A stretch of DNA of 64,000 nt, from contig JBCCEW010000007.1 of assembly GCA_039030075.1 (NCBI GenBank), forward strand, positions 124,001-188,000, read 5' to 3'. Shown piece by piece: positions 11,669 to 59,769 of the stretch. The notes below the pieces were generated by a model, which saw only the letters and a program-made list of their open reading frames with translations, was not told the origin of the DNA and searched no databases. The number at the start of each line of letters is the position of its first letter. Positions within the stretch are counted from its first letter, which is position 1. Position numbers and translations under genes: made by a program. Source of the stretch: Myxococcota bacterium (GTDB taxonomy: Bacteria; Myxococcota_A; UBA9160; SMWR01).

Positions 11669-12364
11669 ATGGCTTCGGGATCCGGTACCGGCGCAGCCCG
11701 GGACACCCGGTTGCGGAGCGACGACGGACGCTTGGTGCGCGGGCGGAAGAGTCGCGCGCGCATCCGAGCGGCGGCACGCAAGTTGTTTCGCGAGCGTGGC
11801 TTCGACGGTACGACCTTGCGCGCGATCGCGGCCGAGGCCGAGATGGGCGCCAGCTCGATCTACCGCCACGTTGCCTCGAAGCACGAGCTGCTGGTCCTGG
11901 AACTCGCGGAGCTCCAGGAAGAGGCGTGGCTCCAGTTCCGCAAGCGCGACGATCGCGGCGCCGCGACGGCCTCGCGCGTGCGGGACTTCCTCGACGTCCA
12001 GCACGGTCTGCTCGCCTCGAACGCCGACCTGGTGGTGATCGCCCTGCGGGCCACCACCTACCCGGACGCTCCCGTCGCGCGGCGCGCCCTGGCACTGCAG
12101 GACCGTACGATCGGCCTGCTCACCGAGATCCTGCAGTCCGGTCGACGCGATCTCGCACCGGGAATCGAGCCCCTGGCCGCCGCGCGGGCGCTGTTCCACG
12201 CAGCCAGCGGAGCTCGCATCAGCTGGGCGAATGGCCTCGTCTCCGAACAGGGGTGCCGCCGGGCGGTCGACGAGTGCGTCGCCCTGCTCTTCCGTGGGCT
12301 CTCGGTGGGTGCGCGCCCGGAACCGACGCGGCCCCTCCCGGCGCCACCTCCCGACGCGCCCTGA
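11669..12364 (+). CDS. TetR/AcrR family transcriptional regulator
   Basis: Repressor of 231 residues. The N-terminal helix-turn-helix (about 37-75, TTLRAIAAEAEMGASSIYRHV) is typical TetR; the rest is an all-helical ligand domain. The start ATG at 11669 has GGAGGG five bases upstream. About 25 basic, disordered residues precede the helix-turn-helix. It is convergent with the gamma-carbonic anhydrase gene. The ligand is unknown; acyl-CoA-type ligands are common for TetR proteins near fatty-acid or steroid catabolic genes, so it is a candidate regulator of the operon at 17.6-24 kb (inference). Confidence 0.88.
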   Translation: MASGSGTGAARDTRLRSDDGRLVRGRKSRARIRAAARKLFRERGFDGTTLRAIAAEAEMGASSIYRHVASKHELLVLELAELQEEAWLQFRKRDDRGAATASRVRDFLDVQHGLLASNADLVVIALRATTYPDAPVARRALALQDRTIGLLTEILQSGRRDLAPGIEPLAAARALFHAASGARISWANGLVSEQGCRRAVDECVALLFRGLSVGARPEPTRPLPAPPPDAP

Positions 12365-17644: not shown

Positions 17645-17684
17645 GCGCCTGGATTCACGCCGCCAGACTCACGCCGCCAGGCGC
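17645..17684. terminator. Hairpin with duplicated stop segment between convergent genes
   Basis: GCGCCTGG (17645-17652) and CCAGGCGC (17677-17684) are perfect inverted arms. Between and within them TCACGCCGCCAG occurs twice with a 14-base period (17655-17666 and 17669-17680). The second copy encodes the last residues and stop of the P450, so a second LAA-stop codon run follows immediately downstream. It could end both convergent transcripts. Confidence 0.4.
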
Positions 17685-18919
17685 AGCTCGAGCCGCGACC
17701 GTCCGCGCACCAGGAACGAGTCGAGGAACTCCACCTCCGGGCAGGCACGCTCGCAGCGCATCAGGTGGGGCAGCAAGGCCTCCAGCGCGACGCGGGCCTC
17801 GAGGCGCGCCAGCCCGGCTCCGACGCAGAAGTGATGCCCCTGACCGAAAGCCAGGTGGCCGCGCGTGTCGCGCTCGATGTCGAAGGTGTCCGGCGCAGCG
17901 AAGCGTCGCTCGTCCCGGTTGGCGGCGCCGACCAACAGGACGACGTGCGCATCTGCCGGGATCTCGGCGCCGTGCCGCGACAACGTACACCGCGTCGTTC
18001 GGTTGACGATCTGGATCGGGCCGTCCCAGCGAAGCGACTCCTCGATCGCCGCCGGGAGCCAGCGGTCGGGGGCCGCGTGCACCATTGCCAGCTGTTTCGG
18101 GTGGGCGAGCAGGGCGTCGACGGCGTTGCCGATCAGGTTCGTCGTGGTCTCGGTACCCGCCATGAGCAAGAGCTGGACGAAGAGGTACACCTCGAACTCG
18201 CTGAGCTCGAGACCACCGTCATCGGCCTGAAGGAGCTGGCTCAGCAGGTCGTCCCCCGGATCGGCCGCGCGCTCGCGGATGATCGGCTGCAGGTAGTGAC
18301 GGAACTGGGCCATCGCCTCGATCATGCCTCCATCCAGGGAGGCCTCACCGGTCCCCGCCGCGAGGATGGTGTCGGCGAGCTGCTTGAACTTCTCGCGCCG
18401 GCTCGACCCCAGCCCGAGGAGCTCCCCGAGAATGCGCACCGGCAACGGATCGGCCAGGCGCCCGATGACGTCGATCGGGTGGTCTCCCACCATCGGCTCC
18501 AGACAGTCATCCACGATCTCGCGCACCTGCTTCTCGAGATTCTCGATCCGGTCCCGGCGAAAGCTCGGACGCACCAGCGCGCGCATCGCCGCATGGGTGG
18601 CGCCGTCCTGATGGGCGAGCATGCGTGCGCCCCGCGCCTCCAGGGGTGACGTGCGCATGAAACGGAAGTACTGGATGGCCATCCGCAGCCAGTGGAAGGG
18701 GCTCGGGCGATCTCCGGCAGCCAGACCCATCGGCCGCTTCCACTGGGACGAGAACCACTCGGGGTGCCGCAACGCCCAGGAGACATCCTCGAACCGCGAC
18801 AACACCCAGGCGTTGGACTCAGGCGCGTAGTGGATGGGTGCGGTGTCGCGAAGAGCCCGGTAAGCCGAGTATGGGTCGGTCTTGTGCGCGTGAGAATACG
18901 GCTCGAACAGCAGCGGCAT
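17669..18919 (-). CDS. Cytochrome P450 at the end of the igr-like operon
   Basis: Bacterial class I P450 of 416 residues, soluble. Visible hallmarks are the I-helix LLMAGTETTTN (251-261), ExxR at Glu294-Arg297 (EESLR), and the heme loop FGQGHHFCVG (358-367) with Cys365 as the iron ligand. ATG at 18919 sits 8 bases after AGGGG; two in-frame ATGs lie at 18925 and 18940. It is the last gene of the minus-strand operon for steroid side-chain degradation, where mycobacteria place cyp125. The I-helix reads AGTETT rather than the AGNETT I recall for CYP125, so it may be another CYP family doing an analogous hydroxylation. No ferredoxin gene is adjacent. Confidence 0.88.
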   Translation of the reverse strand: MPLLFEPYSHAHKTDPYSAYRALRDTAPIHYAPESNAWVLSRFEDVSWALRHPEWFSSQWKRPMGLAAGDRPSPFHWLRMAIQYFRFMRTSPLEARGARMLAHQDGATHAAMRALVRPSFRRDRIENLEKQVREIVDDCLEPMVGDHPIDVIGRLADPLPVRILGELLGLGSSRREKFKQLADTILAAGTGEASLDGGMIEAMAQFRHYLQPIIRERAADPGDDLLSQLLQADDGGLELSEFEVYLFVQLLLMAGTETTTNLIGNAVDALLAHPKQLAMVHAAPDRWLPAAIEESLRWDGPIQIVNRTTRCTLSRHGAEIPADAHVVLLVGAANRDERRFAAPDTFDIERDTRGHLAFGQGHHFCVGAGLARLEARVALEALLPHLMRCERACPEVEFLDSFLVRGRSRLELRLAA

Positions 18920-18980
18920 CCGCATCACCCCTGCAAGCAATCATATGGAGCCAGCCAGCGAGCATCCACCCCAAAAACGA

Positions 18981-18994
18981 GTGACGGGCGTCAC
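18981..18994. promoter_or_regulatory. Palindromic operator-like site before the P450
   Basis: GTGACG-GG-CGTCAC is a perfect inverted repeat with 6-bp arms in the 98-base gap between the aldolase and P450 genes, about 62 bases ahead of the P450 start. It could be an operator for separate P450 control. No clear -10/-35 pair was found. Confidence 0.3.
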
Positions 18995-19017
18995 CAGGCA
19001 GTGATGGGGCCGGCCGG

Positions 19018-20202
19018 TCAGACAGCGCCGAGGATCAACCCGCTGGTGGGGACGCCCGTGCCCGCCGTGACCAGCACGTGCTCGACCCCGTCGACCGGGT
19101 TGTGCGAGGTTCCGCGCACCTGACGGACGCCTTCGGCGATGCCGTTCATCCCGTGGATGTAGGCCTCCCCCAGCTGGCCCCCATGGGTGTTGATCGGGAG
19201 CCGACCGCCGAGCTCGATATGGCCTTCGCGCACGAAGTCCTTCGCCTCGCCGCGGCCACAGAAGCCGAACTCCTCGAGCTGCGTGAGCACGAAGGGCGTG
19301 AAGTGGTCGTAGATGATCGCGGTCTGGATGTCCTCGGGGCCGACCTCGGCGGTCTCGTAGAGCTGGCGGGCCACCAGCCCCATCTCGGGAAGCCCCGTGA
19401 TTTCCGGCGTGTAGTAGCCGGTCATCATCTGCTGTTCTGTGATGGCGCCCTGGGCGGCGGCCGCGACGCGGACCGGCGGCTGACGCAGATCTCGCGCCCG
19501 CTCGAGGCTCGTCAACACGACCGCCACCGCTCCGTCACTCTCCTGACAGCAGTCCAGCAGGTGCAACGGCTCGACGATCCAGCGGGAGTTCTGGTGGTCC
19601 TCGAGGGTGATCGGCTTCTCGTAGAACCAGGCCGAGGGGTTGGTGGCGGCGTGCTTGCGATCCGCAACGGCAACCCGACCGAAGTCTTCGCTGGTCGCCC
19701 CGTACTCGTGCATGTAGCGCTGGGCATTCATCGCCACCCAGGACGCGGGGGTGAGCAACCCGTAGGGCGAGTGCCAGCCGAAGTGGATGGTTTCGGTGCG
19801 AGGCGTCAGCGCCTGCCCCTGCACGCCGGTGCCGAAGCGCTGCTCGGAGCGTTCGTTCATGGCGCGATAGCAGACGACGACTTCACAAACGCCGGACGCG
19901 ATCGCCATCGCCCCCTGCAAGAGCGGAGCACAGGCGGCACCACCGCCGAAGTGGGTCCGCCCGAAGAAGCGCAGGTCACCCCCGCCCAGAGCGCGGTTGA
20001 CCTCGATCTCCGGGTTGTTGTCCATCGTGTAGGTGGCCATGCCGTCGACGTCGCTCGGCGGGATGCCGGCATCTTCGAGCGCAGCGGAGATCGCCTCGAC
20101 GGCGAGCCTCAGCTCGGAGCGGCCCGAGGCCTTCGAGAACTCGGTGGCGCCGATCCCGACGATCGCCGCTTTGTCCTTCAGGTCGTTCGCGAAGCCGGTC
20201 AC
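19018..20202 (-). CDS. Thiolase-fold aldolase, Ltp2-like (steroid side-chain retro-aldolase)
   Basis: Thiolase-superfamily protein of 394 residues that resembles Ltp2/SCP-x-type enzymes. In a hand alignment the thiolase nucleophile Cys position falls on Gly in HFGGGAACAPLLQ, so ordinary thiolysis is unlikely. The conserved C-terminal GG block (NTHGGQLGEAYIHG) and YDHFTPFVL remain. In the igr system of mycobacteria Ltp2 partners with the DUF35 domain of ChsH2 to release propionyl-CoA by retro-aldol cleavage, giving a C17-keto steroid. The GTG start overlaps the stop of the MaoC gene (GTGA), and the DUF35 partner is encoded in the same operon, which supports this role. Confidence 0.82.
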   Translation of the reverse strand: MTGFANDLKDKAAIVGIGATEFSKASGRSELRLAVEAISAALEDAGIPPSDVDGMATYTMDNNPEIEVNRALGGGDLRFFGRTHFGGGAACAPLLQGAMAIASGVCEVVVCYRAMNERSEQRFGTGVQGQALTPRTETIHFGWHSPYGLLTPASWVAMNAQRYMHEYGATSEDFGRVAVADRKHAATNPSAWFYEKPITLEDHQNSRWIVEPLHLLDCCQESDGAVAVVLTSLERARDLRQPPVRVAAAAQGAITEQQMMTGYYTPEITGLPEMGLVARQLYETAEVGPEDIQTAIIYDHFTPFVLTQLEEFGFCGRGEAKDFVREGHIELGGRLPINTHGGQLGEAYIHGMNGIAEGVRQVRGTSHNPVDGVEHVLVTAGTGVPTSGLILGAV

Positions 20203-20621
20203 GAGGGAAGCACCACCACCACTTCGCCCCGCACGTGATGACCGAGGTCGTTCTCGCCGACCACGGCCACCGTGACCTCCCCGCCCGACGCCTTCGACTT
20301 GACCTCGCCACGCAGACGCATCGTGTCGCCGGGGTAGTTGGGCGCGCCCAGGCCGATGTCGACCGAGCGGATCAGCGCTTCGGGCCCGGCCCAGTCGGTC
20401 ACGTATCGCCCGACGAACCCGTTCGTCGTCAGGATGTTCATGAAGATGTCCGTCGAGCCGCGCTGCTTGGCGAGCTCGGCGTCGTGGTGGACATCCTGGT
20501 AGTCGCGCGAAGCGATGGCACCGGCGACGATCGTCGTCCGGGTGATCGGGACCTCGAGGGTCGGCAGTGCGTCCCCCTCCGCGATCTCGGGGTAGCGCAG
20601 CGTCGCTCGGCTCTCGCTCAT
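20199..20621 (-). CDS. chsH1: MaoC-like hydratase subunit, ChsH1-like
   Basis: Single hot-dog protein of 140 residues. The catalytic region reads SRDYQDVHHDAEL (Asp40, His45/46), followed by DIFMNILTTNGFVGRYVTDWAGP. From memory both stretches closely resemble mycobacterial ChsH1 (Rv3541c), the active half of the ChsH1-ChsH2 enoyl-CoA hydratase acting on the 3-carbon steroid side chain. The ATG at 20621 has GGAGG six bases upstream. The stop overlaps the aldolase start by 4 bases. The gene symbol is given by this resemblance and operon context; activity is not proven by sequence. Confidence 0.85.
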   Translation of the reverse strand: MSESRATLRYPEIAEGDALPTLEVPITRTTIVAGAIASRDYQDVHHDAELAKQRGSTDIFMNILTTNGFVGRYVTDWAGPEALIRSVDIGLGAPNYPGDTMRLRGEVKSKASGGEVTVAVVGENDLGHHVRGEVVVVLPS

Positions 20622-20647
20622 CACGCCTCCGGAGTCGCCCTGGACCT

Positions 20648-21778
20648 CTAGGCCTCGAGCTGGGCGTAGGCGTCGCTCACCAGATGGCTGCCGAGATCGG
20701 CCAGGGTCTGGTTGGCCCCGCCGATCAACAGCTCGTTCTGCTTCGCCCACAAGAAGTAGCGGTGGATCGGATACTCGATGTCCGAGCCGATGCCGCCGTG
20801 CAGGTGCTGCGCGGTGTGCACGACCCGGTGGCCGGCCGTGGCCGCCCACCACTTCGCCGTCGCGATCTCGGCCGTGGCGTCGCGCCCTTCGGCGATGCGC
20901 GAGGCGGCCTGCATCACCACGCCTCGCAGCGCCTCGACGTCGATCCACGCGTCGGCAGCGCGCAGGGCGACCCCCTGGAACGTGCCGATCGGCTTCCCGA
21001 ACTGCTTGCGCTCGGAGACGTAGGTCGCCGTCTGCTTCGTGGCGCCCGCCGTCACGCCGACCTGGATCGCGGCCAGCGCGATCGCCGTTCGCTGTTCGAG
21101 GAAGCGCACGATCTCCTGCCCACCGTCGGGCGCGCCCAGCACATCGAGGGCCATCGCACCCGACAACTCGACCCGCCACTGCGGCTCGCCGTTCGTGATC
21201 ACCTGGCGCTCGAGGGTCACACCGGGACCCTTCGGGTCGACCAGGAACACCCCGACGCCGCCGCCGCAGCGGGCCGGCACCAGCAGCGCGCGTGCGAGAT
21301 CGGCCGCGGCAACGCAGTGCTTCTCGCCGTCGAGGCGCCAGCCGTCTCCGGAACGAATCGCTTCGGTGCGCGGCTGCGCGGCATTGGAGCTCGCGTACTC
21401 GACGAGGGCGGCCGAGAGCACCGCCTCGTCCTCGGCCACCGGGCGCAGCCAGGTCTCCTGCTGTTCGGGCGTGCCGAACTCGGCGATCGGCATGGCACCG
21501 AGGACGGCCGTCGCGAGGAGCGGCACGGGCGCGAGGTGACGTCCCTGCTCTTCGAGCACGACGCACAGCTCTTCGATCCCGAAGCCGCCGCCGCCGAGCT
21601 CTTCGGGAATCGCCAGGGCCGTCAGGTTGGCGCGCGCGAGCTCACCCCAGAGCTCGAGATCGAACCAGGCTTCGCCCTTTTCGAGCTCGAGCAAGCGGTC
21701 GTGCGTGACGCGGTCGCCGAGGATCTGCTGGGCGAGCGCGCGAATCGCTTCTTGTTCTTCGGTGAGTGCGAAATCCAT
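20648..21778 (-). CDS. Acyl-CoA dehydrogenase subunit, ChsE1/FadE28-like
   Basis: Acyl-CoA dehydrogenase of 376 residues, the shorter partner of a heteromeric pair. It retains the FAD-contacting block YVSERKQFGKPIGTFQGVA (about 263-281) and a C-terminal HGGIGSDIEYPIHRYF. Heteromeric alpha2-beta2 dehydrogenases (ChsE1-ChsE2 = FadE28-FadE29) build each FAD site from both subunits; this subunit supplies the R-x2-FG motif that its partner at 22758-23933 lacks. It dehydrogenates a short steroid side-chain CoA thioester in that system. The ATG at 21778 follows AGAGGTGG. It sits 26 bases upstream of the chsH1-like gene. Confidence 0.85.
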   Translation of the reverse strand: MDFALTEEQEAIRALAQQILGDRVTHDRLLELEKGEAWFDLELWGELARANLTALAIPEELGGGGFGIEELCVVLEEQGRHLAPVPLLATAVLGAMPIAEFGTPEQQETWLRPVAEDEAVLSAALVEYASSNAAQPRTEAIRSGDGWRLDGEKHCVAAADLARALLVPARCGGGVGVFLVDPKGPGVTLERQVITNGEPQWRVELSGAMALDVLGAPDGGQEIVRFLEQRTAIALAAIQVGVTAGATKQTATYVSERKQFGKPIGTFQGVALRAADAWIDVEALRGVVMQAASRIAEGRDATAEIATAKWWAATAGHRVVHTAQHLHGGIGSDIEYPIHRYFLWAKQNELLIGGANQTLADLGSHLVSDAYAQLEA

Positions 21779-21808
21779 GGATCCACCTCTGGGCGATTGG
21801 GTTTGGGA

Positions 21809-22747
21809 CTAGGCGTCGGGAACGGCGTGGAACAGGGGCAAGACGAGGTCTTCGTCCACGCGGGTGAATTCGACTTCGACGGGCATGCCGATCGTGATGT
21901 CGGCCGGGTCGACGCCGACCAGGTTCGACACGACCCGCGTACCCTCTTCGAGCTCGACGAGGACGATCGCGTTCGGGTATGCGAAGGGCGGGATCGCCGG
22001 GTGGTGGGCGACGACGAAGCTGTAGACCTCGCCCCGCCCGGAAGAGACCACGAAGCCCCGCTGGAGCGATTGACACTTCGGGCACATCGGTGTCGGCGGA
22101 TGCTGCAGGTGCCCGCAGTCGAGACAGCGCTGGATGCGCAGCTCGCCCTGGGCCACGCCCTCCCAGAAGAAGGCGTTGTCCGTATTCTGCGCGGGCTTCG
22201 GGCGCGGGAGCGCTGCTGCCGACGGTTTCGCAGCGGGCGGTATGAACTTCAGCAGGCGGAAGGTCATGCGAGCGACCTCTTCGCCCTCGGCATCGCGATA
22301 GACCAGCAGCTCGTCGACGAAGCGACCGATGCCGAGCGCCGTCTTCTTCTCCGGGGAGACGCTCGCCACCTGGGTGGTGACGCTGAGCCGGTCTCCATCG
22401 CGCAGGTAGCGCGCGTAGTCCTGGCGACAGTTGGTGGCGACCACCGACGTGTAGCCGGCTTCGTCCAGGAGTCGGAGCACCTCTCCCGCAGGCTCGACCC
22501 CGCCCTCTCGGGCCGGCGGTCGGAGCCCGCGCATGGTCCAGGCCTGCAGCATGGTGGGCGGCGCGACGCACTCACCGTGCACCGACTTCGCCGCGAAATC
22601 GGCGTCGAGGTACACCGGGTTGTCATCGCCGACCGCGTCGCACCAGTGGCGCACCATCGGCGTGTTGACGGCGTCGCGCGCCTGCTCGGCCGGTCCCTCG
22701 CGTCCCAACCAGGGCGCGAGCTGTTCTTCCAAGGCGTCGGGGGGCAC
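21809..22747 (-). CDS. chsH2: MaoC-DUF35 fusion, ChsH2-like
   Basis: Two-domain protein of 312 residues: an N-terminal MaoC-like hot-dog domain (about 1-170) and a C-terminal DUF35 domain with a zinc ribbon (Cys208, Cys211, Cys222, Cys225 in QRCLDCGHLQ and MCPKCQ) followed by an OB-fold (GRGEVYSFVVAHHPAIPPF). This fusion is the architecture of mycobacterial ChsH2 (Rv3542c): the MaoC half pairs with ChsH1 to make the hydratase, and the DUF35 half binds and activates Ltp2. It lies between the two dehydrogenase genes and starts at GTG 11 bases after the upstream stop. Assignment rests on fusion architecture plus operon content. Confidence 0.85.
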   Translation of the reverse strand: MPPDALEEQLAPWLGREGPAEQARDAVNTPMVRHWCDAVGDDNPVYLDADFAAKSVHGECVAPPTMLQAWTMRGLRPPAREGGVEPAGEVLRLLDEAGYTSVVATNCRQDYARYLRDGDRLSVTTQVASVSPEKKTALGIGRFVDELLVYRDAEGEEVARMTFRLLKFIPPAAKPSAAALPRPKPAQNTDNAFFWEGVAQGELRIQRCLDCGHLQHPPTPMCPKCQSLQRGFVVSSGRGEVYSFVVAHHPAIPPFAYPNAIVLVELEEGTRVVSNLVGVDPADITIGMPVEVEFTRVDEDLVLPLFHAVPDA

Positions 22748-22757
22748 GGGGGAAGCG

Positions 22758-23933
22758 CTAGCGACCCGCGCGGGGCAGACCGAGCCCGAACATACCGATG
22801 AGCTCGCGTTGCACCTCGTTCACGCCGCCGCCGAAGGTGTTGATCTGGCAGGCGCGCCACTCGGTCTCGAGCTCGCCGCGCAGCACGTCGCCGGCGCTGC
22901 CGCGCTTGACGGCGCCCGGCATCCCGACCACTTCGAGCAGCAAGCGGTAGACCTCGATCACGGCCTCGGTGCTGTGCACCTTCGATGCCGACGCCATTGC
23001 AGGATCGACGACGCCCTGTTCGAGCTGCCACGCCATGCGCCAGTTGAAGACCTTCATGGCTTCGAGGCGGGCGTGGGCCTCCCCGAGGCAGGACTGCACC
23101 CAGGGCTTCTCGGCCACCGACTGGCCGTCTTCGGCCTCGGTCTTGCGCGCCCACTCGAGGGTGTCCTCGAAGAGCTTCTGCGCGTAGGTGCTGAACGCCG
23201 CGAGCCCGATGCGCTCGTGGTTGAGCTGCAGGGTGATCAGCCGCCAGCCCTTGTTGACCTCTCCGACGACCATGTCGACGGGAACCCGCACGTTCTCGTA
23301 GTAGCTCATGCAGGTGTGACCGCCGCCGACGGTGTGGATCGGCGCGCTCGAGAAGCCCGGATCCTTCGTGTCGACGATCAACATCGTGATGCCCTTGTGC
23401 TTCGGGGCGTCGGGATCGGTGCGCACGGCGAGCCACACGTAGTCGGCAGAGTCGGCACCACTCGTGAACATCTTCGTGCCGTTGATGACGTAGTGGTCCC
23501 CGTCGAGCACGGCTTCGGTCTTGAGTGCGGCGAGGTCCGTGCCGGCGTCGGGCTCGGAGTAGCCGATCGCGAAATGGATCTCGCCGGCGAGGATGCCGCG
23601 CAGGAACTTCTGCTTCTGCGCTTCCGTGCCCGCTTCCATCAAGCAGGGCCCGACCGTGTTGAGCGTGACGAAGGGGATCGGCGCGCCGGCACGGCGTGCT
23701 TCCTCGAACCAGATCATCTGCTCGATCGCCGTGCGGCCCTGACCGCCGTACTCGGTGGGCCAACCGACGCCCAGCCAGCCGTCCTTGCCCATCTGGCGGA
23801 CGATTTCCTTGTGCAGCGGGCCGTTCTCGAGCCCCACCAGCTTCGGCCGGACCTCGGGCGTGATCAGCTTCGCGAAGTAGTCGCGGAGTTCGGCGCGCAG
23901 CGCCTTCTGTTCGGGGGTGTAGTCGACATGCAT
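22758..23933 (-). CDS. Acyl-CoA dehydrogenase subunit, ChsE2/FadE29-like
   Basis: Acyl-CoA dehydrogenase of 391 residues, first gene of the igr-like operon. It has the family blocks EIHFAIGYSEPDAGTDLA and the C-terminal FAD-binding TFGGGVNEVQRELI, but lacks the R-x2-FG-x6-Q motif, which its partner at 20648-21778 supplies. The N-terminal MHVDYTPEQKALRAELRDYF and the core closely resemble what I recall of FadE29 (Rv3543c). The start at 23933 has GGAGAG upstream; a longer frame to 23981 would run into the operator-like palindrome. With its partner it should form an alpha2-beta2 dehydrogenase for short steroid side-chain CoA esters. Confidence 0.86.
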   Translation of the reverse strand: MHVDYTPEQKALRAELRDYFAKLITPEVRPKLVGLENGPLHKEIVRQMGKDGWLGVGWPTEYGGQGRTAIEQMIWFEEARRAGAPIPFVTLNTVGPCLMEAGTEAQKQKFLRGILAGEIHFAIGYSEPDAGTDLAALKTEAVLDGDHYVINGTKMFTSGADSADYVWLAVRTDPDAPKHKGITMLIVDTKDPGFSSAPIHTVGGGHTCMSYYENVRVPVDMVVGEVNKGWRLITLQLNHERIGLAAFSTYAQKLFEDTLEWARKTEAEDGQSVAEKPWVQSCLGEAHARLEAMKVFNWRMAWQLEQGVVDPAMASASKVHSTEAVIEVYRLLLEVVGMPGAVKRGSAGDVLRGELETEWRACQINTFGGGVNEVQRELIGMFGLGLPRAGR

Positions 23934-28046: not shown

Positions 28047-29150
28047 ATGATGAACCTCGACTCCGAACGCGTCGCCCAGTCCGTATCCGAGACCGACTGG
28101 CAGGACGCCATCCGCACCTGTCATCTCCTCCGCGTCGCCGAGACGATCGAGGAGACCCACGACACGCTCTCGATCGTGTTCGAGGTTCCCGCCGCGCTGC
28201 AGGACGCGTTCGCCTATCGCGCGGGTCAGTTCCTGAGCTTCAAGGTTCCGCACGAGGGCAAGGTGCTGGTGCGGAGCTACTCGCTCTCGAGCTCGCCGGA
28301 AACCGACTCCGCGCCCAAGGTGACGGTGAAGCGGGTCGAAGACGGTCGCATCTCCAACTGGATGAACGACCACGTGCGCGCGGACGTCTCCTTGATGGTG
28401 GTGCCGCCCGCGGGACTCTTCGTGCTCGACCCCCAGTCGACGCGCGACGTGGTGCTGTTCAGCGGCGGCAGCGGGATCACGCCGTGCATCTCGATCATCA
28501 AGACGGCACTCGTCAGCTCCCAGCGCAAGCTCACGCTCTTCTACGCGAACCGCGACGCGCGCTCGATCATCTTCTCGAAGGAGCTCGAGTCGCTGCAGCA
28601 GCAGCATCCGGGCCGCCTCGAAATCACCCACTCGCTGGACGCCGAGCGGGGCTTCGTCACCGCCGACGACGTGCGCGGCGTCGTGGGGAGCGCGCCCGAC
28701 CGCGACTTCTTCCTGTGCGGACCGGGCGAGTTCATGGACACGGTCGAGGCGGCGCTCCAGAACGCCGGCGTCGCCCGGGACCGCATCGCCATCGAGCGTT
28801 TCGTGTCACCGACCGATCCGGGCGACGACGCGACCACAGACACGGCGGCGAGCGAAACCAGCGGAGATGCGCCCGCCACCATCACGATCGCGCTCGACGG
28901 CCAGGAACACGAGGTGCCCTACGAACCCGGTGAGCGGATCCTCGAGGCGGCGCGTCGCGCGGGTCTCGACCCGCCGTTCTCCTGCGAAGAGGGCTACTGC
29001 TCCTGCTGCATGGCGAAGGCCCCGAGCGGCACGCTCGAAATGGCCACGAACGACTGCCTCACGCCCGACCTGCTCGAAGAGGGCTGGGTGCTGACCTGCC
29101 AGGCCCGCTGCAAGGGCGGCGGGAAGGTCCGGATCGAGTACCCGGACTGA
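28047..29150 (+). CDS. Flavin/2Fe-2S reductase, KshB-like
   Basis: Three-domain electron-transfer reductase of 367 residues. An FAD domain carries RSYSLSSSPE (about 76-85), an NAD(P)H domain carries GGSGITPCISIIKTAL (about 140-155) and CGPGEFM (about 227-233), and a C-terminal plant-type ferredoxin carries C-x4-C-x2-C (CEEGYCSCC) with a distant Cys (LTCQARC). In length, domain order and detail (YANRDARSIIF, AIERF) it resembles 3-ketosteroid 9-alpha-hydroxylase reductase KshB more than PaaE. KshA, the oxygenase partner, is not adjacent; the Rieske oxygenase at 36.6 kb has its own ferredoxin. With the igr-like operon 4 kb away, a role in steroid ring hydroxylation is plausible. Confidence 0.8.
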   Translation: MMNLDSERVAQSVSETDWQDAIRTCHLLRVAETIEETHDTLSIVFEVPAALQDAFAYRAGQFLSFKVPHEGKVLVRSYSLSSSPETDSAPKVTVKRVEDGRISNWMNDHVRADVSLMVVPPAGLFVLDPQSTRDVVLFSGGSGITPCISIIKTALVSSQRKLTLFYANRDARSIIFSKELESLQQQHPGRLEITHSLDAERGFVTADDVRGVVGSAPDRDFFLCGPGEFMDTVEAALQNAGVARDRIAIERFVSPTDPGDDATTDTAASETSGDAPATITIALDGQEHEVPYEPGERILEAARRAGLDPPFSCEEGYCSCCMAKAPSGTLEMATNDCLTPDLLEEGWVLTCQARCKGGGKVRIEYPD

Positions 29151-36637: not shown

Positions 36638-37924
36638 ATGCCGGCCACGCCCCTGCGCACCCCGATGGAACGCGCGCCCGATCCGGGCCTCGGCACCGCC
36701 GCAGTTCCGAAGGACCGCTACACCTCGCGCTCCTTCATGGACCTCGAGTGGGAACGCATGTGGAGTCGGGTCTGGTTGATGGCCGGTCGCGTGTCGGACC
36801 TCGAGCGACCGGGCGATTACTTCACCTTCGAGATCGGGCCCGAGTCGATCCTGATCATTCTCCAACCCGACGGCAGCCTGGCGGCCCGCTACAACGTCTG
36901 CATGCACCGCGGCAACCGGCTGCGCGAGCCTGGTCGCGGCCACGCCGAGAGCTTCTCTTGCCTCTTCCACGGCTGGAAGTACGGGCTCGACGGAAAGCTC
37001 CTCGAGGTACTCGACCCCGAGTCGTTTCCCCAGGGCTGCGAGGGTCTCGACCTGCGGCCGGTGCGCTGCGAGACCTGGGCCGGCTTCGTCTTCGTGAACC
37101 TCGACCCGGACGCCGTGCCGTTGCACGAGTACCTGGGCGTGATCCCCGAACACCTCGACCCCTACCACTTCGAGGAATGGAAGGTCGCCTTCGAGTGCAC
37201 GATCGAGATCGAGTGCAATTGGAAGACGAGCGTCGATGCGTTCAACGAGGCCTATCACCTGGCGGCCACCCACACCTGGACGCTCGAGTTCAGCGACGAC
37301 GTCGGCACGCTCTATGACTGCTACGACAAGCACACGCGCATGATCTTCCCGGAGGTACAAGCGAGCCCGCGCCACGAGGGCGCCGGCACCGTCACCCCGG
37401 GCATTCGCGACATGTTCCTCGCGCGCGTCGGCGTGGACCTCGAGAAGTTCGAGGGCGGGCCGGCGGAAGCCCGGACCGCCTACGCCGACGCGATCCGCAA
37501 GCTCGGACCGACCCTCGGCTGCGACTTCTCGGAGCTGAACGAGTCGCAGATGTGCGACGACTTTCACTACACCGTGTTTCCGAACGTCACCTTCAACACC
37601 CACTCGATGTTCACCTGGGTCTTCACCCACAGGCCCCACCCCGAAGACCCGAACAAGATGTACTTCGACTTCTGGAGTCTCTTGCGCGCACCCGCGCAGG
37701 ACCTCCCGCGTCCGGAGAAGCGCCTCTACCGCACCGCCGACGGAGACACCCTGGCCGGAGAATGCGAGGGCGGAGATCTCCTCGACGAGGATCTCTACAA
37801 CCTGCCGAGGATCCAGGCGGGCATGCGCTCGAAGGCCTTCGAGTCGCTCCACCTCGGCGAGCAGGAGATCCGCATCCGCCACTTTCACCGCACCCTCGAG
37901 CGCTATCTGGAAGGCAGCCTGTGA
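36638..37924 (+). CDS. Rieske non-heme iron oxygenase, catalytic subunit
   Basis: Aromatic-ring-hydroxylating-type oxygenase of 428 residues. The Rieske cluster ligands are Cys88, His90, Cys108 and His111 (C-x-H-x17-C-x2-H). The mononuclear iron site is NEAYHLAATH, with His207 and His212 and a later Asp. The architecture is that of the alpha subunit of dioxygenases or of monooxygenases acting on carboxylates and lipids. A Rieske ferredoxin gene follows with a 4-base overlap, so electrons come via that protein. No beta subunit is present. The substrate is not identified. Confidence 0.9.
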   Translation: MPATPLRTPMERAPDPGLGTAAVPKDRYTSRSFMDLEWERMWSRVWLMAGRVSDLERPGDYFTFEIGPESILIILQPDGSLAARYNVCMHRGNRLREPGRGHAESFSCLFHGWKYGLDGKLLEVLDPESFPQGCEGLDLRPVRCETWAGFVFVNLDPDAVPLHEYLGVIPEHLDPYHFEEWKVAFECTIEIECNWKTSVDAFNEAYHLAATHTWTLEFSDDVGTLYDCYDKHTRMIFPEVQASPRHEGAGTVTPGIRDMFLARVGVDLEKFEGGPAEARTAYADAIRKLGPTLGCDFSELNESQMCDDFHYTVFPNVTFNTHSMFTWVFTHRPHPEDPNKMYFDFWSLLRAPAQDLPRPEKRLYRTADGDTLAGECEGGDLLDEDLYNLPRIQAGMRSKAFESLHLGEQEIRIRHFHRTLERYLEGSL

Positions 37925-38292: not shown

Positions 38293-40035
38293 ATGCACGA
38301 TCTCGCGATTCGCGGCGGTCTCCTGGTCGATGGCAGCGGCGCACCGCCGCGCGCTGCCGACGTTGCCGTCGACGACGGACGCATCACGGCGGTGGCACCC
38401 GAGGTCGGGACGGCCCGCGAGACGATCGACGCCACCGATCGTTGGGTGCTCCCCGGCATCGTCGACATCCACACCCACTACGATGGACAAGCGACCTGGG
38501 ACTCGTTGCTCACGCCCTCGTGCTGGCACGGCGTCACCACCCTGGTGATGGGCAACTGCGGCGTCGGGTTCGCGCCGGTGCGACCGGGCGACGAGGACTT
38601 CCTCGTCGGACTGATGGAAGGCGTCGAGGACATCCCCGGGACCGCCCTGTCGGCCGGGATGAAATGGGGTTGGGAGAGCTTCCCGGAGTACCTGGACGCG
38701 CTCGACGCGATCCCCCACGCCCTCGACCTGGGCACCCAGGTGCCCCACGGCGCCGTGCGCGCCTACGTGATGGGCGAACGCGGCGCCCGCAACGAGCCGG
38801 CCAACGCCGAAGACATCGCCCGCATGGCCGAGGTCGTGCGGGAGGGGATGCTCGCCGGCGCGCTCGGTTTCAGCACGTCGCGCACGATCGTGCACCGCGC
38901 CGTCGACGGCGAGCCGGTACCCGGCACCTTCGCGGCCGAGGACGAACTCTTCGGGATCGGGCGCGTCCTGCGCGAGGTGGGACGCGGACTCTTCGAGCTC
39001 GCGCCGGCCGGCGTGATGGGCGAAGACCTGGCGGCACCGGCGAAGGAAGTGGCCTGGATGCGCCGGCTGTCCGCGGAGACGGGACGACCCGTGAGCTTCG
39101 CGCTCTCCCAACACGAGCTCGACAAGGACCAGTTCCGCGAGGTGCTGGCCCTCGCGCGAGAAGCGAACGCCGACGGGGCGCAGCTCCGACCGCAGGTGGG
39201 TTCCCGACCGACGATGCTCTTGATCGGGCATTCGACCTTCCACCCGTTCTCGTTCAAGCCGAGCTACCAGGCCCTCGAAACGCTCCCGCTCCCCGAGCGG
39301 GTGCGCGCGCTACGCGACCCCGAGACGAAGCGCCGCATCCTGGCCGAGACCTCGGTGGCGGGCGACGACCCGCGCGTCGGCTTCGTGATCCAGCTGATCG
39401 AGCAGGGCATGGACAAGATCTTCCCCCTCGGTGATCCGCCGAACTACGAGCCCAGCCCGGATCAGTCGATCGCGGCGATCGCCGCCCGCGAGAACCGCGA
39501 CCCCTTCGAGGTGCTCTACGACCGCATGCTGGAGCTCGACGGACGCCAGCTCTCGATGCTCGCGATCCTCTCCTACGGCGAAGGCGACCTCGAGGCCCTG
39601 CGCGAGATGCTCGAACACCCGGACAGCGCCTTCGGTCTCGGGGACGGCGGCGCCCACTGCGGCTCGATCTGCGACGCGAGCATGACGACCTTCCTGCTCT
39701 CCCACTGGGTGCGCGATCGCACCCGCGGCCCGAAGCTCCCGCTCGAGTGGGTGGTGCGGAAGATGACCCGCGACACCGCCGAGCTCTACGGCCTGCACGA
39801 CCGCGGCGTCGTGGCCCCGGGTCGCAAGGCCGACCTGAACGTCGTCGACGGCGAGCGTCTGGAGCTGGCCCTCCCCGAGCTGGTGCACGACCTGCCCGCC
39901 GGAGCGCGGCGCCTGATCCAACGCGCCCGCGGCTACGACGCGACGATCGTGTCGGGCGTGGTGACCTTCCGCGACGGCGAACACACCGGCGCGCTGCCGG
40001 GACGCGTGCTCCGCGGGCCCCAGTCGGCCGCGTAG
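38293..40035 (+). CDS. Amidohydrolase family 3 / D-aminoacylase-like
   Basis: Metal-dependent amidohydrolase of 580 residues, with an urease-like beta-barrel. The first metal-binding motif is GIVDIHTHYDGQ at about 55-66. GNCGVGFAPV, GALGFSTSRT and the C-terminal GGAHCGSICDASMTTFLLSHW belong to the N-acyl-D-amino-acid deacylase branch. It lies on the same strand as the Rieske pair and may be co-transcribed. Proteins of this branch are often seen near catabolic oxygenases; the amide or lactam substrate is unknown. Confidence 0.86.
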   Translation: MHDLAIRGGLLVDGSGAPPRAADVAVDDGRITAVAPEVGTARETIDATDRWVLPGIVDIHTHYDGQATWDSLLTPSCWHGVTTLVMGNCGVGFAPVRPGDEDFLVGLMEGVEDIPGTALSAGMKWGWESFPEYLDALDAIPHALDLGTQVPHGAVRAYVMGERGARNEPANAEDIARMAEVVREGMLAGALGFSTSRTIVHRAVDGEPVPGTFAAEDELFGIGRVLREVGRGLFELAPAGVMGEDLAAPAKEVAWMRRLSAETGRPVSFALSQHELDKDQFREVLALAREANADGAQLRPQVGSRPTMLLIGHSTFHPFSFKPSYQALETLPLPERVRALRDPETKRRILAETSVAGDDPRVGFVIQLIEQGMDKIFPLGDPPNYEPSPDQSIAAIAARENRDPFEVLYDRMLELDGRQLSMLAILSYGEGDLEALREMLEHPDSAFGLGDGGAHCGSICDASMTTFLLSHWVRDRTRGPKLPLEWVVRKMTRDTAELYGLHDRGVVAPGRKADLNVVDGERLELALPELVHDLPAGARRLIQRARGYDATIVSGVVTFRDGEHTGALPGRVLRGPQSAA

Positions 40036-56566: not shown

Positions 56567-57655
56567 TCAGCCGTTCCACTCCACCGGCGCATCCACGCCG
56601 CCCGACACCTCGGCCAGGCACTCCTCGAGACTCCCCCAGGCGAGCGACCGATCCTTGCCGCGCAGCGTGAAGAAGTAGAGATCGTTCTCCTCGATGATCC
56701 CGTTCCCGCCGTGGATCTGGTGGGCGAGCATCACCACCTCGGGCGTCGTTCGCGAGGCCGAGGCCTTCGCGATCGCCACCTGGGCGTCGCTGCCGCCGCC
56801 CGCGCCCACCGCGTGCAGGGCCTCGAAAACGAGCTGCCGGCTCGCCGAGACGCGGATCGCCATGTTCGCGGCGTGGTGCTTCACCGCCTGGAAGCTGCCG
56901 ATCGGGCGTCCGAAGGCCTCGCGGACCGTCGCGTACGCCACTGTCTGATCGAGGGACTGCCCGGCCGAACCGACACACTGCACGGCGGCGAAGAGACGCG
57001 ACAGGCGCAGCAGCGCCTCCGCACCCTTCGCGTCGGCGACCTTCTCGGCAGGCGCTCCGTCGTAGCGCACGCGCGCGCTGGGCGTGCGCCCGATCGTCTG
57101 GAGCGCCTCGGTCGCCACGTCGGGTCCACCCGCATCGACCCAGAAGAGCGCGGGCGTCGAACCGTCGAGGGCCGCGACCAGGTGGTGCGTCGCGAACTGG
57201 CCGTAGTCGACGAAACACTTCTCCCCGCGCAGCCGGCCTCCGTCGACGGCCAGGCGGATCGAAGCGAGATCGTCCTCGGCTTCGAGCCAGGCCGGCGTCG
57301 GAACGATCGACCCCGACAGCATCCCCTCGATGCAGCGGCGCGCCGCCTCCGGGTCACCGTGACGTTCGAGGGTGATGCCGCAGGCAAGCGCCTCGGCCAA
57401 CGGAACGACCGCCGCTCGACGCGCCACGGCCTCGAGCAACACGCCGACGTCCACCAGGGAGCCATCGCCGCCGCCGAAGCGCTCGTCGAAGGGCAAGCCG
57501 AGCCAGCCCTGGTCGCAGAGTCCCTTCCACAGGCCGTCGTCCCAGCGCCCTTCGCGCTCGAGCTCGCGAATCCGCTCGAGGGGCACTTCGGCCTCGAGGT
57601 ACTCGCGCACGGTGTCGCGCAGCAGCTCCTGGGTGGGATCGAGATCCAGGTTCAT
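56567..57655 (-). CDS. Acyl-CoA dehydrogenase, small subunit of a heteromeric pair
   Basis: Acyl-CoA dehydrogenase of 362 residues, the short form with weakly conserved middle domain. It keeps the FAD-binding REAFGRPIGSFQAVKHHAA (about 242-260) and the C-terminal HGGNGIIEENDLYFF. Its neighbour (57669-58829) supplies the complementary GGGTNEVMRD motif, so the two probably form an alpha2-beta2 enzyme like FadE28-FadE29. The ATG at 57655 is 13 bases after the upstream stop. Steroid- or branched-lipid-CoA substrates are typical of such pairs. Confidence 0.85.
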   Translation of the reverse strand: MNLDLDPTQELLRDTVREYLEAEVPLERIRELEREGRWDDGLWKGLCDQGWLGLPFDERFGGGDGSLVDVGVLLEAVARRAAVVPLAEALACGITLERHGDPEAARRCIEGMLSGSIVPTPAWLEAEDDLASIRLAVDGGRLRGEKCFVDYGQFATHHLVAALDGSTPALFWVDAGGPDVATEALQTIGRTPSARVRYDGAPAEKVADAKGAEALLRLSRLFAAVQCVGSAGQSLDQTVAYATVREAFGRPIGSFQAVKHHAANMAIRVSASRQLVFEALHAVGAGGGSDAQVAIAKASASRTTPEVVMLAHQIHGGNGIIEENDLYFFTLRGKDRSLAWGSLEECLAEVSGGVDAPVEWNG

Positions 57656-57668
57656 CGGGTGCTCTCCC

Positions 57669-58829
57669 CTACCGCGGCAGACCGAGGCCGGCCCCGGCCA
57701 CGATGTCGCGCATCACTTCGTTCGTTCCGCCGCCGAACCGGAAGATCGGCGCGATGCGGAAGGCCCACTCCATGCGCCCCTCGGCGGGAGCCAGGTCGCC
57801 GTTCTCCTTCGACAGCCCGCCGTAGCGACCGAGCAGGTCCATGGCGGTGTTGGCGAGACGCGCGCGCAGCTCGGTGCCCGACACCTTCGCCATCGAGGCC
57901 TCGGCGATCGGAGTGCCGCCCTTCGAGATGATCCAGGCGTTGTTGAGGGCCAGCGCACGGTGCTCCTGCAGGTCGAGCTGGAGCTCGGCGAGCTTTCGTC
58001 GCACCAGCGGGTCCCCGAGCTTCCCCGGCGCGTGCTCCTGCAGGTAGGCGACGAGCTGATCGTAGAGCCGCGCCAATGCACCGGTCGCGGCGAGCCCGAC
58101 GCGCTCGTGGTTCAGCGCGTGCATCACGATGCCCCAACCCTGATTGAGCCCACCGACGAGGTTGGCGTGGGGGACGCGCACGTCGTCGTAGAAGGTCTCG
58201 CAGGTGTGGCCGCCGTACATCGCGTGCAGCGGCCGGATCGTGAGGCCGTCGGCGTCGGTCGGCACGATGAACACCGAGATGCCCTGATGCTTCGGGAGAT
58301 CCGGGTCCGTGCGCACGGCCAACCAGATGTGGGTGGCCACGTCGGCGAGCGACGTCCAGATCTTCTGGCCGTTGATCACCCACTCGTCTCCGACCCGGAC
58401 AGCCTTCGTGCGCAGCGAGGCGAGGTCGGTTCCGGCGTTGGGCTCGCTGTAGCCGATCGCGAAGGTGTACTCGCCGCTCCAGATGCCAGGCAGGTAGGCC
58501 TCGCGCTGGGCGTCGTTCCCGAATTGCTGAATCGACGGGCCGATCGAGGTGTAGGTGAGGTTGCCGTAGGGCATGCCCCAGTACTCCATCTCTTCGACGA
58601 AGAGGTACTGGTAGAGCAGGTTCTTCCCCTGCCCTCCCTGCTCGACGGGCCAGCAGATCCGTGCCCACCCCTTTTCCTCGAGGGCCGCGCGAAACTTCGC
58701 GAGCTCGGGACCGCCGGCGCCGTAGGTGGCCGCGTACTCGGCCAACAGCTGCGGAGTTCGCCATTCGCGAATGAAGGCGCGCAGCTCGTCGCGAAACGCC
58801 AGGTGATCGGGTTCCCAGGAAAAGTCCAT
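57669..58829 (-). CDS. Acyl-CoA dehydrogenase, large subunit of a heteromeric pair
   Basis: Acyl-CoA dehydrogenase of 386 residues. Characteristic blocks are FAIGYSEPNAGTDLASLRT (about 122-140), GGHTCETFYDDVRVP (about 195-209) and the C-terminal FRFGGGTNEVMRDIVAGAG. It lacks the R-x2-FG-x6-Q motif found in the partner at 56567-57655. The start ATG at 58829 has AGGGAG eight bases upstream; a longer frame to 58961 adds non-conserved residues. It is the first gene of the pair and is divergent from an enoyl-CoA hydratase gene, suggesting a small beta-oxidation unit. Confidence 0.86.
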   Translation of the reverse strand: MDFSWEPDHLAFRDELRAFIREWRTPQLLAEYAATYGAGGPELAKFRAALEEKGWARICWPVEQGGQGKNLLYQYLFVEEMEYWGMPYGNLTYTSIGPSIQQFGNDAQREAYLPGIWSGEYTFAIGYSEPNAGTDLASLRTKAVRVGDEWVINGQKIWTSLADVATHIWLAVRTDPDLPKHQGISVFIVPTDADGLTIRPLHAMYGGHTCETFYDDVRVPHANLVGGLNQGWGIVMHALNHERVGLAATGALARLYDQLVAYLQEHAPGKLGDPLVRRKLAELQLDLQEHRALALNNAWIISKGGTPIAEASMAKVSGTELRARLANTAMDLLGRYGGLSKENGDLAPAEGRMEWAFRIAPIFRFGGGTNEVMRDIVAGAGLGLPR

Positions 58830-58959: not shown

Positions 58960-59769
58960 ATGCCCGCTCACCTCGAACTCCCCCCCGAACATCCCCACGT
59001 CGCGCTGGTGACGATCGACCGCCCCGAGCGCGCGAACTCGCTCGATCCGCCGACGCTGCGCGAGCTGGCCGCGGCCTGGGAGCGCATCGCCGACGACGAC
59101 GAGATCCGCTGTGCCGTGCTGACCGGAGCCGGACCGCGCGTCTTCTGTGGCGGCATGGACATGCAGGCGACGATCGCCGTCTCTCAGGCGCTGGCACGCG
59201 GCGAACGCATCGACCCGAAGGACTTCGAGGGCCTGCGCGCCGTCCGCACCGCGACCCTCGCGGGCTTCGATCTCGAGACGCCGCTCATCTGCGCGATCAA
59301 CGGACACGCGCGCGCCATCGGTTGCGACATCCTGCTGGCCGCCGAGCTTCGCTTCGCCGCACCCCACGCGACCTTCGCCCTCGAGGAGGTTGCGCGCGGT
59401 CTCTACCCGACGGGAAATGCCACCGTCATGCTCGCGCGTCAGATCGGCTGGGCCCACGCCCACGAGATCATGCTGACCGCCCAACCCCTCGATGCGACGC
59501 GCGCCGCCGAGATCGGTCTGATCAACCGGGTGGTACCCGAGTCCCTGCTGATGGACACGGTCTTCGAAGCGGCCGACGCCATCGCCGCCAATGCGCCACT
59601 CGCCGTGCGCGCCACGCGACAGGGCGTCCGCGAGCTCTTCCACCTTCCGCTGGCCGAGGCCTACGAACGCCAGGAGGAACTCGGCAAACCCCTCCGTCGC
59701 ACCGAGGACGCGGCCGAAGCCACGCGGGCCTTCGCCGAGAAGCGACCGCCGGTGTGGAAAGGTCGCTAA
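58960..59769 (+). CDS. Enoyl-CoA hydratase/isomerase family protein
   Basis: Crotonase-fold enzyme of 269 residues. HVALVTIDRPERANSLDPPTL opens the fold; GPRVFCGGMDM (about 58-68) and CAINGHARAIGCDILLAAELRF (about 107-128) form the oxyanion hole and substrate pocket. In the usual Glu positions it has GHARAIGCD and EEVARGLYPTG, so at least one catalytic acid is conserved. It probably hydrates an enoyl-CoA made by the adjacent divergent dehydrogenase pair. Confidence 0.85.
   Translation: MPAHLELPPEHPHVALVTIDRPERANSLDPPTLRELAAAWERIADDDEIRCAVLTGAGPRVFCGGMDMQATIAVSQALARGERIDPKDFEGLRAVRTATLAGFDLETPLICAINGHARAIGCDILLAAELRFAAPHATFALEEVARGLYPTGNATVMLARQIGWAHAHEIMLTAQPLDATRAAEIGLINRVVPESLLMDTVFEAADAIAANAPLAVRATRQGVRELFHLPLAEAYERQEELGKPLRRTEDAAEATRAFAEKRPPVWKGR

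Follow-up and report, generated by a model that had tools for sequence, protein, structure and literature searches.

The stretch analysed here is a window of 64,000 nucleotides (contig C7:124001-188000) from the genome of an uncultured Myxococcota bacterium, a relative of myxobacteria. On its minus strand, at 19018-23933, lie five enzyme genes in the order E1-H2-E2-H1-Ltp2 which, judging from their sequences, very likely form an operon for removal of the C3 (propionyl) side chain of steroids. A first-pass annotation had described six consecutive minus-strand genes at 17669-23933, the sixth encoding a cytochrome P450, and all six are present:

22758-23933, minus strand: E1, steroid-type acyl-CoA dehydrogenase (ACAD; CoA, coenzyme A), larger FAD/catalytic-type subunit, FadE29/CasL-like, 391 amino acids
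21809-22747, minus strand: H2, ChsH2/CasM-like protein with an inert MaoC domain and a DUF35 domain, 312 amino acids
20648-21778, minus strand: E2, steroid-type ACAD, partner subunit, FadE28/CasN-like, 376 amino acids
20199-20621, minus strand: H1, ChsH1/CasO-like short MaoC protein, catalytic MaoC subunit, 140 amino acids, ATG start at 20621
19018-20202, minus strand: Ltp2/CasP-like retro-aldolase with a thiolase fold, 394 amino acids
17669-18925, minus strand: cytochrome P450 downstream of the operon, 418 amino acids, not CYP125 and probably outside the core

The 4-base overlaps that the annotation had ascribed to this gene set reduce to a single one, between H1 and Ltp2 (GTGA); the remaining neighbours in the operon are separated by 10, 30 and 26 bases, and 92 bases lie between the Ltp2 stop and the start of the P450.

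Among solved structures, each of the five proteins is closest to a steroid side-chain enzyme. E1 matches 6wy8_B (Tcur3483) at 430 bits and 4x28_A at 428 bits, with the next best non-steroid match at 152 bits, and E2 matches 6wy8_A (Tcur3481) at 283 bits and 4x28_D at 226 bits. Both ACAD subunits of the steroid type are therefore encoded within the cluster, as their best matches 6wy8_B and 6wy8_A indicate; the 4x28 pair is mycobacterial ChsE4-ChsE5. The first half of H2 resembles ChsH2 (4wnb_A/4w78_A, 139 bits) and its second half the DUF35 chain 6ok1_B (132 bits), in keeping with its Pfam domains zf-ChsH2 and OB_ChsH2_C. H1 matches ChsH1 (4wnb_B) at 117 bits, and the motifs YQDVHH and RYVTDWAGP, which the annotation had named as ChsH1 stretches, do fall in the stretch aligned to the solved protein. 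Ltp2 matches 6ok1_A at 583 bits across 384 residues, with the next PDB match at 188 bits, and exceeds the curated cut-off of the NCBIfam lipid-transfer protein model NF005892 (695.6 versus 469 bits). All of these similarities exceed chance by a wide margin. Co-conservation in related genomes, the lack of which the annotation had named as a ground for refutation, was also found: the relatives G014, G021 and G023 have these five genes in identical order at 58-81% identity per protein, as does deltaproteobacterium SP3084 at 49-75%.

The catalytic residues of E1, H1, H2 and Ltp2 fit propionyl side-chain removal. In E1, an LNHER motif has its Glu at the site of residue 247 of 4x28_A, the catalytic base, and the Gly at the site where 6wy8 and its variant 6wy9 differ is retained. 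In H1, the Asp and His at the sites of D29 and H34 of 4wnb_B are retained, while H2 has a Tyr in place of the catalytic His of MaoC hydratases, a division matching that of ChsH1 as the catalytic half and ChsH2 as the inert half (PMC11321319). Ltp2 carries YDHF (Tyr298) and GEAY (Tyr348), which correspond to Tyr294 of YDHF and Tyr344, the pair of TcLtp2 for C3 side chains, and not to the YDCY and Gln of the C5 aldolase Sal (PMC12329534). The proteobacterial Shy/Sal system likewise combines a MaoC-DUF35 protein with a thiolase-fold aldolase; however, Shy acts on C5 chains by itself, with no ChsH1 partner, and its zinc finger is of the C3H1 type, whereas that of H2 is C4 (CLDC-x10-CPKC) (PMC11321319, PMC12329534).

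Based on these findings, we consider it highly probable that the five genes form a single operon for taking the C20-C22 propionyl side chain off a CoA-bound steroid, and that within the cas/igr/TA441 family they represent a branch belonging to Myxococcota. The substrate would be a steroid with a three-carbon (C20-C22) propionyl side chain, presented as the CoA thioester. First, the ACAD heterotetramer (22758-23933 with 20648-21778) would form the C17-C20 double bond. H1, paired with the inert MaoC half of H2, would then hydrate at C17. Finally, Ltp2, docked on the DUF35 half of H2, would cleave the tertiary alcohol in a retro-aldol reaction to yield a 17-ketosteroid and propionyl-CoA. What the sequences show is homology of the five proteins with retained catalytic residues, the gene order and its conservation in relatives, and a cluster for rings C and D elsewhere in the genome; the substrate, expression and activity of the operon are inferred. 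A C3 acid derived from a sterol or bile acid is our best guess for the substrate, and it is plausible that the host breaks down sterol or bile-acid-like side chains.

Ring-degradation genes in the host and its order

The first-pass annotation had suggested looking for ring-degradation genes elsewhere in the genome, and in the 5.76 Mb, 95% complete assembly these were found in part. On contig C24, an IpdA matches 6co6 at 359 bits, against 91 bits for the next class, and a further CoA-transferase gene occupies the position of IpdB. The contig also has genes of the EchA20, FadA6 and IpdF types; these three exceed the cut-offs of NCBIfam models for the C/D-ring (HIP) pathway. This cluster for rings C and D supports steroid breakdown. 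A KstD-like protein in the C24 cluster was rejected as KstD, its best family being the PRK07121 FAD-binding proteins. The host genome has the IpdAB C/D-ring cluster, and convincing KstD, HsaC and HsaD of the complete aerobic 9,10-seco route were not found in it.

Across the 61 genomes of the order, with Ltp2 called at E 1e-100 and BphC_D1 taken as the marker of HsaC, the usual enzyme of first-ring cleavage, Ltp2 occurs in 53, IpdA in 49 and the HsaC marker in 12. Ltp2 and IpdA are both present in 48 genomes, both absent from seven (five of which fall in two genera of one family) and found singly in six. The HsaC marker is distributed independently of either gene (p 0.65 and 1.0). These Ltp2 counts take in paralogue classes; window-type Ltp2 (at least 66% identity) is found in 25 genomes, and of these 21 also carry IpdA and four the HsaC marker. 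The marker model spans 51 positions, so that a divergent HsaC could slip through, and incomplete genomes add noise.

Several results weigh against the proposed reading. The BphC_D1 domain was not found in the 95%-complete host genome; it is present in nine of 13 other genomes checked, including all cultured ones. Queries with HsaC and HsaD of Rhodococcus koreensis gave no match at E 1e-15 in the host genome, in a comparison that scored 62 of 76 candidates. The KstD query gave a weak 64-bit match, HsaA 168 bits at 30% identity, and KshA 129-130 bits at 31-32% identity; two Rieske proteins exceed the KshA_C cut-off, but at 30% identity to KshA. Moreover, the Fisher value of 1e-5 for the co-occurrence of Ltp2 and IpdA ignores phylogeny. 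As canonical A/B-ring genes were not found, the substrate is not fixed, and a non-steroid polycyclic or a partly degraded acid is possible.

One alternative would account for the missing A/B-ring genes directly, by the same chemistry acting on a non-steroid polycyclic or isoprenoid acid. The HsaC marker was not found in 39 of the 48 order members with both Ltp2 and IpdA, which agrees with this idea, as does the lack of a convincing KstD, HsaC or HsaD in the host. Aldolase paralogues are also numerous, with 12 Ltp2-like proteins in SP3084 and, in the host, a second copy with YDAF instead of YDHF. Nevertheless, the Ltp2 of the window bears the exact YDHF/Tyr signature of the characterized C3 steroid aldolase and the host IpdA clearly matches the steroid C-ring-opening enzyme, and we regard this alternative as unlikely.

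The host paralogue just mentioned is 56% identical to the window Ltp2 and lies at C13:127509-132401 (L130:15509-19999 and the start of L131) together with ChsH2, ChsH1, a CaiB-like CoA-transferase and a hydrolase. A complete second five-gene operon on C13 was ruled out, because only H2-H1-Ltp2 is present there and the other two genes are, judging by their sequences, the CoA-transferase and the hydrolase. Aldolases of the YDAF class are likewise present in SP3084 (L141) and in those relatives that were checked (L012, L221, G007, L119). Genome totals of Ltp2-like aldolases include the 12 in SP3084 (G006) and seven in Pseudomaricurvus alkylphenolicus (G009).

Gene order and descent of the operon

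Three arrangements recur among 80 named loci: the igr arrangement (E2-E1-H2-H1-Ltp2) in actinobacteria, the TA441 type (H2-E2-H1-Ltp2-E1) in beta- and gammaproteobacteria, and the cas type, E1-H2-E2-H1-Ltp2. The window is of the cas type, identical to the order in R. koreensis (L138) and to the casLMNOP locus-tag order of Rhodococcus jostii RHA1, assigned to the C3 side chain of cholate (PMC8399759). With R. koreensis as proxy for casLMNOP, the same five genes in the same order share 54% (E1), 49% (H2), 43% (E2), 59% (H1) and 64% (Ltp2) identity with those of the window. The two differ in host phylum, and KstD- and HsaC-type genes lie close by in the rhodococcal region but were not found in the host genome. 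In a concatenated tree of 67 operons, the igr operons are a clade apart, and the window groups with same-genus and same-family relatives. In approximately unbiased (AU) topology tests on quick trees under the LG+G4 model, uniting the window clade with igr was rejected (p-AU 0.0014), as was uniting it with actinobacterial cas (p-AU 9e-10). The cas-type order is shared, but the branch is separate from that of actinobacterial cas.

The first-pass annotation had read the genes as a complete igr locus with CYP125, in an unusual host. Five of the six proteins do belong to the C3 steroid side-chain set, and the setting is, as the annotation had suspected, not actinobacterial, since the order-level relatives include Myxococcota metagenome-assembled genomes; the assignment to igr itself did not stand. 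A true igr operon acquired from an actinobacterium, dedicated to cholesterol and with CYP125 as its sixth gene, would share the same five protein families, and the Ltp2 of the window is indeed 67-68% identical to mycobacterial and rhodococcal igr Ltp2. The igr locus of Mycobacterium tuberculosis (cyp125-fadE28-fadE29-chsH2-chsH1-ltp2; proxies L074 and L140) also shares the inferred chemistry and the catalytic residues. However, its gene order and clade differ, the E2 of the window shares just 34-35% identity with igr E2, the tree puts operons of same-genus and same-family relatives, not actinobacterial ones, nearest to that of the window, and the CYP125 of igr lies upstream, whereas the P450 of the window lies downstream. 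Recent transfer of an igr operon is ruled out by the tree, and we judge an igr origin very improbable overall.

The P450 itself shares 26% identity with CYP125 from mycobacterial igr loci, which rules it out as CYP125. Its top PDB match is 6gmf, and it is 35-36% identical to a P450 adjoining a cas-order operon in Mycobacterium colombiense; the closest matches to CYP125 lie elsewhere in the host genome (39-40%). No P450 follows Ltp2 in the same-family relatives with downstream flank (L211, L212, L214, L215). The P450 is probably a separate neighbouring gene and not a core part of the operon.

Nor, contrary to what the first-pass reading had implied, is such a set unusual outside mycobacteria. 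Operons of this kind were found across Pseudomonadota, Actinomycetota and Myxococcota, and the ORF40-44 set of Comamonas testosteroni TA441 (proxy L085) was proven by gene disruption (PMC12502768), so that the five-enzyme set was already known outside Actinobacteria. The TA441 set shares the five enzymes but has the order H2-E2-H1-Ltp2-E1, with an E2 36% identical to that of the window. Because igr-like sets outside Actinobacteria are known, proven and common, the implied novelty fails. Finally, although ACAD, MaoC and thiolase folds are widespread and the host genome has dozens of ACAD matches, it is scarcely conceivable that these are ordinary genes of fatty-acid or amino-acid beta-oxidation resembling the steroid set, given how far steroid enzymes lead in bits (ACAD, 430 versus 152; Ltp2, 583 versus 188) and the conserved five-gene order.

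Neighbouring genes

Two further genes of the window have conserved counterparts in related loci:

28047-29150, plus strand: FAD/NAD/2Fe-2S reductase, KshB/PaaE-like (Pfam FAD_binding_6, NAD_binding_1, Fer2)
11783-12364, plus strand: TetR-family regulator (TetR_N), conserved synteny

The reductase is 66% identical to its counterpart in L216 and 39% to that in the cas region of R. koreensis, where a KshB-like reductase lies near the operon as it does here; it is a possible accessory protein, conserved nearby in the same genus. The TetR protein has homologues at the corresponding place in L211 and L215 (67-73% identity) and is a candidate regulator.

In three relatives, a luciferase-like monooxygenase gene lies upstream of E1 (L211:13152-14432, L212:4222-5511 and L216:6452-7735; family by Pfam in L212); the window has none there. 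A second alpha/beta ACAD pair occupies 56567-58829 on the minus strand of the window (38.5% identity to E1 and 32% to E2), with an enoyl-CoA hydratase gene on the opposite strand at 58960-59769. At 36638-37924 on the plus strand is a gene for the alpha subunit of a Rieske ring-hydroxylating dioxygenase; a small gene and then an amidohydrolase gene (38293-40035) come after it. Across the host genome there are 37 matches to P450s and dozens to ACADs, which points to an extensive capacity for lipid or polycyclic catabolism. Contig C4 (L132:4850-13179) carries seven tandem genes for proteins of about 385 amino acids each, three of which were scanned and gave no Pfam match.

Possible steroid breakdown in Myxococcota

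Myxococcota are known for making sterols (PMC12004948); no report of steroid catabolism in this phylum was found in the literature searched. Order-wide, the genes for the side chain and for rings C and D travel together, and the HsaC marker does not travel with them. In a metagenome survey of 2018, none of the minor phyla represented among the matches had hsaC (PMC5790920), so bacteria of this kind would be overlooked by surveys that make hsaC a requirement. We tentatively suggest, as a possibility of lesser weight, that the whole order degrades steroids via side-chain and IpdAB C/D-ring modules, with the canonical HsaC step mostly missing (in the host, KstD and HsaD too). In that case a route yet to be described might open rings A and B, or the bacteria might naturally use a steroid-like acid without these rings. 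The operon extends the known enzyme set to Myxococcota; the order-wide pattern of Ltp2 and IpdA without HsaC merits follow-up more than the operon itself, and the missing A/B-ring step can be put to the test.

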